This document shows, in pieces, positions 31,683 through 33,394 of a stretch of DNA of 64,000 bases. Both the position numbers and the translations under genes were made by a program. Every line of letters starts with the position of its first letter. The first letter of the stretch is position 1. The notes beneath the pieces are model-generated. The model did no database searches and was not told the origin of the DNA. It saw nothing but the letters and a program-made list of their open reading frames with translations. Source of the DNA: Porpolomopsis calyptriformis (lineage: Eukaryota > Basidiomycota > Agaricomycetes > Agaricales > Hygrophoraceae); assembly GCA_951640195.1 (NCBI GenBank), contig OX621166.1, positions 1,852,501 through 1,916,500 on the forward strand, given 5' to 3'.

Positions 31683-33394
31683 CTAATCGCAATCCACCAT
31701 AGTTTGGTCGCCTTCAAAGGCAGATAACCAGGCCTTTACCCCTCCTCGCAAAACGTATGCCTTCGACTGGGTGTCTCCAAGATCATCGAGATAATCTTGA
31801 TACCTATGGAAGCTCTTAATTCAGGTTTAAACCAGCTCTCTGATAAGCGTACCATCCTGCACATCGCGGCCCTCGTCCTGTGGAAGCATTGCAATAAAAA
31901 ATGACTTTGGATGTATGACGAAACTTTTCATGAAACGCTTCCAAAGAATCGTAAAATGTTTGCGCGGCCCATTGATGGCTACCACGGACGTGACCACCCT
32001 ATGTTAAACGTTTCAATAAAGCACAGATGATAGCAAGCTGATTAGCATACCCCGTGATCATTGCGACGAACGTCGATAACCGCATAGTCAGCTTCGGAAT
32101 TCCGCATCAATGCTGCGACCTCCTCGACAGACATCCCAGGTGGAGACGCTTTTGCCGCCGGATACGCATCCCACCATCTACGCAGGGCAGTCGACGGGAC
32201 AGTCGCGCTCGTCTCGGTATTTTTGAGCGCGTAGATTTGGTAGGATGCTAGTCGTATTTATGACATGTCAGATTTCGGCAAGCCAGGGTGGTATCACGCG
32301 GCTCACCGACGAACTCATTAACATCGAAGGACGGCTTGTTCGCAGTTGACCGTCCAGAGCAGCAGTTAGTTGAACAGCCTCCTGTTCCGGCTTGGGTGTA
32401 TACGTTCATATCTCCTTTCATATCAACAAAAAGAGAATCTTCCCAGGTTGTTAGAACAGAATTCGGAAAATACCATTAAACGTGCCTTCAAAGCCTGCCT
32501 GTGCCAGGAGGCGTTTGTATTCATCGATTTGGGTAGCTCCTGAAATACAACCAACATAATGAGCGAGGTCCTTCTTAACTTCTTCGGGAATGACCCGTTT
32601 GGCTATAACCTAAAACAATCCAGTCAGATTAAGCCCAACCTGGTCGAATTGGACGCCCACATCGTCAAGCACAATACGACCTCCGGGTTTAAGAACGCGA
32701 TATGCTTCCTTGAGTACATGGTCCTTTCCAGATAACGGTAAGAGGTTGATTACACAATTAGATAGGATGCAATCGACTGAGTCAGATTCAATCGGAAGGT
32801 TTTCGGTTAGAGAGGCATGGACAAAGGCAACTTGAGGTGGGCGGAGATTTTGCTTCTTTGCATTGCGGCGCGCCAAGGATACCATATCCTACCGCGCAAA
32901 GTCAATGCGCGGATCAGTACACAAAAGGAAACGGCTCACAGCCGACATATCTATGCCAATCACTTGTCCATTCGGTCCGACATTAGATGCCGCCAAAAAA
33001 ACGTCGATCCCTCCCCCACTTCCAAGGTCCAAGACAGTTTCTCCCTGTAAAAAGGATATGGTTATCCCAGGATTCGGCATCCACTTTGATTCACACCTCT
33101 TTGATAGTGGCGGCTGCGACAGGGTTTCCACAACCCAGGCCCATATGAGATTCATCAGGAATGGATTGAAGTTGTTCCATTGTGTATCCGAAAGCGGTAG
33201 CCACATTGGAGGAATCTGGAGAGAGAGCAGTCAGACAGCCAAGTCCCAACCTGTGTGAAATCCAGGATTGTGCACTGACAGGACGAACTTGCACCCTCAA
33301 GAGCTTTGGCGCTATACGTATCGTGGACAGCTTTCAGAAGTTCATCATCCGTAGCGGCATCCACGGTTTGTTGGGTCGTTTGATTTTCAGACAT
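31683..33394 (-). CDS. Fused arsenite methyltransferase - arsenate reductase
   Basis: Two arsenic-detoxifying domains in one polypeptide. Nine exons (33394-33280, 33215-33097, 33044-32940, 32888-32661, 32609-32486, 32438-32307, 32247-32051, 31998-31853, 31803-31683) sum to 1287 nt, 428 residues. Residues 1 to about 270 are an ArsM-type SAM-dependent methyltransferase: VATAFGYTMEQLQSIP, LGCGNP, the SAM motif TVLDLGSGGGIDVFLAA, SNCVINL and YVGCISGA. The Cys residues of the last three As-binding sites are present, followed by a CSTNCC motif. The reading continues through DVNEFVASYQIYALK into a Cdc25/rhodanese-like arsenate reductase with VIDVRRNDHGGGHVRGSHQW and the CX5R loop FYCNASTGRGPRCAGW. 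One intron (donor at 32485) has a GC donor. The exon-4 end could instead lie 24 nt later, in frame. A separate downstream start (32324) is possible but would need a different donor. Confidence 0.88.

Follow-up and report, generated by a model that had tools for sequence, protein, structure and literature searches.

The window analysed here, a stretch of 64,000 nucleotides from Porpolomopsis calyptriformis (contig OX621166.1, positions 1,852,501 to 1,916,500), contains on its minus strand, at 31683..33394, a gene that joins an arsenite methyltransferase (ArsM) to a rhodanese of the Cdc25/ACR2 class. Judging from its homologues, the fusion is real, conserved and encoded by a single gene. It is best explained as a bifunctional arsenic detoxification enzyme of Agaricomycetes, in which As(V) reduction is coupled to As(III) methylation, an assignment that we consider reasonably likely. 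The enzyme families are known already; the variant lies in their joining in one gene.

Reading of the minus strand, combined with comparison to homologues, yields a spliced coding sequence of 1287 nt, the last codon being the stop, which encodes 428 residues. This bears out an earlier sequence-only reading in its start at 33394, its stop at 31683, its strand, its nine exons, its length and the motifs it quoted. All exons, separated by eight introns, were delimited by splicing, and exons 5, 7 and 8, like the gene as a whole, also by homologues. Exon 1 (33280..33394) encodes the ArsM N-terminus, exon 2 (33097..33215) GLGCGNP with C67, exon 3 (32940..33044) the S-adenosylmethionine (SAM) motif VLDLGSGGGIDV, exon 4 (32661..32888) SNCVINL with C158, and exon 5 (32486..32609) YVGCISG with C210. 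Exon 6 (32307..32438) contributes C252, C256 and C257 and runs up to NEFV. Exon 7 (32051..32247) holds the ArsM end YQIYALK (residues 277–283), the linker (284–298), the rhodanese start WWDAYP (299–304) and DVRRNDH (333–339), followed by exon 8 (31853..31998) with the CX5R loop FYCNASTGR, containing C376 and R382, and exon 9 (31683..31803) with the rhodanese C-terminus and the stop. The introns measure 47–64 nt each, 425 nt in total; seven are GT-AG and one is GC-AG. Two junctions were fixed by homologue comparison: the end of exon 1 at 33280, with a GTCAGT donor, and the 47 nt GC-AG intron 5 (32485-32439) that follows exon 5. Under a model restricted to GT-AG introns, the junction of intron 5 (32439-32485, minus strand) moves by 12 nt. 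The gene is not a chance assembly, because its protein matches full-length fungal proteins, with an identity of up to 62% and an E-value of 1.8e-164 (a 427-residue earlier splice version served as the query).

Residues 1–283 form a complete ArsM arsenite methyltransferase domain with the three As-binding cysteines. C67, C158 and C210 align with C72, C174 and C224 of CmArsM, the three As(III)-binding cysteines (numbering from PMC5552862; this and the other papers cited here are represented by excerpts of their text). In the window protein and its best 120 database matches, C67 is conserved in 115 of 121 sequences (five have gaps), C158 and C210 in 120 of 121 each, C256 in 109 and C257 in 105. 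The SAM-binding core and the overall ArsM fold are present, the fold being that of a model of the homologue P0001. The SAM motif and the three cysteines are shared with CmArsM (4fr0), CrArsM (5evj) and human AS3MT (8xt7), and the P0001 fold is alike. Unlike these ArsM/AS3MT enzymes, the window protein adds a C-terminal rhodanese, found neither in the 80 prokaryotic loci kept nor in the ascomycete ArsMs read. The NCBIfam model for bacterial and archaeal arsenite methyltransferases, NF008823 (PRK11873), scores 253.8 bits, below its cut-off of 263. Other proteins likewise combine ArsM with a second domain, but with different partners: the ArsM-AhpD (NF041537) and ArsM-DUF2284 (NF041536) selenoproteins, whose models match within residues 43–240 and score 159.5 and 137.9 bits, far under their respective cut-offs of 510 and 575, and an arsM-SelD fusion of Naegleria (PMC5552862).

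Residues 299–428 constitute a complete rhodanese of the Cdc25/ACR2 class with its CX5R loop intact; PF00581 scores 34.5 bits against a cut-off of 22.2 on the 427-residue version. The catalytic C376 is kept in 119 of the 121 sequences, R382 in 116. Of the 13 PDB sequence matches, 12 belong to the Cdc25/ACR2/Ygr203w class. LmACR2 (2j6p) and Ygr203w (3fs5, 3f4a) likewise consist of a rhodanese domain with a CX5R loop, although theirs is a single domain, with His where the fused protein has Tyr before the catalytic Cys. Single-domain fungal relatives of the same family, with loops like FYCxSSxGRGPRC, occur in Cladochytrium, Nowakowskiella, Physocladia and Tricholoma matsutake, with no ArsM fusion in the listed protein. 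Rhodanese relatives of 75–240 residues are few: there were 47 matches, many of them apparent gene fragments.

The sequence-only reading was right about both halves, the ArsM and the Cdc25/rhodanese with its CX5R loop; its view of the join needs one refinement. The segment DVNEFVASYQIYALK, through which it had the ArsM half run into the rhodanese, is no linker but the native C-terminus of ArsM and is present in unfused ascomycete and bacterial ArsMs; in the alignment, the ArsM half ends in SYQIYALK and these unfused proteins end similarly. The rhodanese half begins at WWDAYP (residue 299), and the single-domain relatives P0130 and P0124 show NWWDAYP or NWWEAYP near their own start, P0130 starting just ahead of NWWDAYP. 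The first in-frame ATG of exon 7 encodes M313, already within the rhodanese, and this speaks against a second protein with a start of its own, which would lack the beginning of the domain. Two separate genes at the locus are very unlikely, because the coding sequence on either side of the join lies in a single exon, exon 7. Two neighbouring genes, or an ars cluster in which arsM and acr2 are distinct genes, were therefore rejected on sequence grounds.

That neighbouring genes were wrongly joined in the gene model, built for this organism from genomic sequence, is extremely improbable. Apart from the position of the join within exon 7 and the lack of an in-frame ATG before M313, the same domain order is found in 114 of the 120 best matches, and some homologues lie on short contigs with no space for introns. 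Fifteen of the 120 are on contigs of less than 2.3 kb; four of these encode shortened proteins (317–328 residues) and 11 are full-length. In nine of the 11, no more than 220 nt lie beyond the coding sequence, compared to 425 nt of introns in the window gene; the other two, P0046 and P0093, have 497 and 959 nt. These short-contig homologues resemble spliced transcripts; alternatively, they could be genes without introns.

The fusion recurs in many related fungi, as a check for both domains in other fungi, proposed with the sequence-only reading, has borne out: in 114 of the 120 best matches the alignment covers 80% or more of each half (residues 60–230 and 300–420), a count that is not a frequency, as the ranking of matches favours fusions and close relatives crowd the best 120. 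The remaining six cover 68–74% of one half. Six of the 120 are without a precomputed PF00581 match. Homologues thus carry both domains, with both sites conserved, in agreement with the single two-domain gene proposed and excluding that homologues never carry both. The named matches look like Agaricomycetes throughout, judged by name, with fused proteins in Hebeloma (Agaricales), Heterobasidion (Russulales), Sparassis (Polyporales), Sphaerobolus (Geastrales) and Sistotremastrum (Sistotremastrales); a further fused homologue, P0029, is that of Coprinopsis cinerea. In prokaryotes, 80 ArsM loci were kept from at least 577 confirmed stretches; not one of these 80 matches beyond residue 303 of the 419-residue query, leaving the rhodanese half unreached. 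A search with a 190-residue query found ArsMs without a rhodanese in ascomycetes (Aspergillus, Talaromyces) and bacteria; it admits only proteins of about 105–333 residues and so establishes the presence of unfused ArsMs in these groups rather than the absence of long fusions.

A quick ArsM tree was calculated from 65 hand-chosen sequences: the window protein, 26 of the 120 matches, nine ascomycete sequences and one grouping with them, 27 prokaryotic sequences and P0169. The 27 fused ArsMs fall on one side of a branch with a Shimodaira-Hasegawa-like approximate likelihood ratio test (SH-aLRT) support of 98. They adjoin the ascomycete sequences (96) and, together with these, ArsMs of the Acidobacteriota/Planctomycetota type (100; midpoint root). 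This placement is in line with the proposal that fungal arsM came from planctomycetes (PMC5552862). P0169, a 299-residue protein of Rhizopogon without a rhodanese, falls inside the fused group and may reflect either later loss of the rhodanese or a gene model that is too short. A tree of the rhodanese half is too poorly resolved to order the single-domain Agaricomycete forms relative to the fusion, as preceding it or split off from it.

We infer that the rhodanese half reduces arsenate. C376 and R382 of the CX5R loop would carry out the conversion to arsenite, drawing on a thiol reductant, for example glutathione/glutaredoxin; the ArsM half would bind the As(III) on C67, C158 and C210 and methylate it with SAM, as suggested by its conserved residues and fold; and unmethylated As(III) would exit via the ACR3 pump encoded next door. 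The fusion enzyme is probably cytosolic. Joining the two enzymes would provide them in equal amounts and close together, which makes direct transfer of As(III) possible but does not imply it.

Some observations make arsenate reduction less certain. The residue before the catalytic Cys is Y375 (Tyr in 119 of the 121 sequences, His in one and Cys in one), whereas ACR2 enzymes are described with an HCX5R loop (PMC9454679). As the fold search with the two-domain model barely covered the rhodanese part, the single-domain relative P0124 was folded and searched instead, and its best fold is a tie between the Leishmania As/Sb reductase LmACR2 (2j6p) and yeast Ygr203w (3fs5, 3f4a), with which the aligned part of the P0124 fold shares 28% and 23% identity, respectively, Ygr203w being ahead in Foldseek. 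Five of the 121 fused sequences lack the catalytic Arg (P0057, P0074, P0110, P0100 and P0104), the last two also the Cys. In plants, HAC1 is an arsenate reductase whose loop is CX4R (PMC9454679), so neither the length of the loop nor the His is a strict indicator of function. The Tyr and the Ygr203w-like fold, like the annotation, which says rhodanese only, would suit a sulfurtransferase or protein phosphatase acting in thiol supply, thio-arsenical formation or regulation. We regard this as decidedly unlikely: the loop C-NASTG-R is one residue longer than the Cx4R/T type of sulfurtransferases (PMC10135228) and does not fit a thiosulfate/mercaptopyruvate sulfurtransferase, and the PDB sequence matches, ArsM as partner and ACR3 as neighbour also speak against it. 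The missing catalytic residues would fit a non-catalytic scaffold or stability domain, but the near-complete conservation of C376 and R382 makes such a role highly improbable. The two proteins that have lost both Cys and Arg, P0100 and P0104, are from Mycena and constitute natural controls for a scaffold role.

The same residues and the conserved fusion would fit equally well if the rhodanese half reduced methylated As(V), i.e. MAs(V) and DMAs(V), rather than inorganic arsenate, enabling further rounds by ArsM, and the presence of TMAO (trimethylarsine oxide) in Hebeloma mycelium, reported in 2026 (PMC13314834), indicates long methylation chains. This we consider unlikely, as an inorganic As/Sb(V) reductase is among the two nearest solved folds and as ArsC (PF03960) had no match in a six-frame search of the genome, so inorganic arsenate reduction would then need another enzyme, for which Ych1-like and Cdc25-like proteins are possible candidates. 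A more far-reaching version of the favoured coupling of As(V) reduction to methylation is a true hand-over, in which As(III) would pass from C376 to C67, C158 and C210, perhaps via the conserved C256-C257, without free arsenite. It is a tentative idea, as is its corollary, to which we give an equally modest chance, that the fusion may be an old invention of mushroom-forming fungi behind their methylated arsenic and, in further steps, perhaps also arsenobetaine. The two-domain model of P0001 (predicted template modelling score, pTM, 0.86) suggests a defined placing of both domains, as a hand-over would need. A fusion-specific cysteine relay through C252, C256 and C257 was also considered and is weakened, the CC pair being present in unfused ascomycete and bacterial ArsMs.

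No description of the fusion was found among the matches listed in full-text searches of open papers, subscription papers lying outside the scope, and none appears in the excerpts of PMC5552862, PMC13314834, PMC11370035, PMC5398495, PMC10470841, PMC10199152, PMC12860867, PMC7826186, PMC10135228, PMC9454679 and PMC13188914. This agrees with the sequence-only reading, which knew of no characterisation, although automatic annotation already shows the architecture, for instance as 'SAM-dependent methyltransferase/rhodanese-related sulfurtransferase'. According to the 2026 Hebeloma study (PMC13314834, in the part available), it still has to be established which enzymes reduce As(V) and methylate As in these fungi; for both activities in mushrooms, the fusion offers one concrete candidate. 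The Hebeloma cylindrosporum homologue P0043, a partial record, has both domains with the loop intact, so the question is directly testable in laboratory strains. The fusion bears on the arsenic species in edible mushrooms and, if its proposed function is true, would exemplify in nature how two successive steps that share a toxic intermediate can be combined in one polypeptide.

Downstream on the same strand lies the ACR3 arsenite efflux gene (29975..31500, minus strand, with approximate exon ends), recognised by TIGR00832 at 296.7 bits (cut-off 282.8) over a joined stretch of 303 residues; its first ATG, as read here, is 182 bp downstream of the fusion stop. Six-frame searches of the genome, which may miss genes split by introns (that for PF00581 passed over this very fusion gene), yielded neither another ArsM (E 0.01) nor another ACR3 (E 0.001), and ArsH had no match. 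Other CX5R proteins in the genome are a Ych1/Ygr203w-like stretch (L015, 2339-2557 on genome contig C10, loop HCALSQSR) and a Cdc25-like protein (L002); both have His before the Cys and are without the FYC...GRGPRC loop. Converging on ACR3 is an IF-2B family stretch at 29358-29759 (plus strand), presumably a methylthioribose-1-phosphate isomerase, while two Asparaginase_2 matches at 34391-34972 (plus strand) are divergent from the fusion gene. An SNF2-related domain at 39403-40245 (plus strand) is, from its neighbouring frames, what we take to be a CHD1-like chromatin remodeller. At 59281-60147 (plus strand), an allantoicase repeat is followed by a ureidoglycolate lyase domain in one open frame, which may be a further case of successive steps of a pathway being fused.
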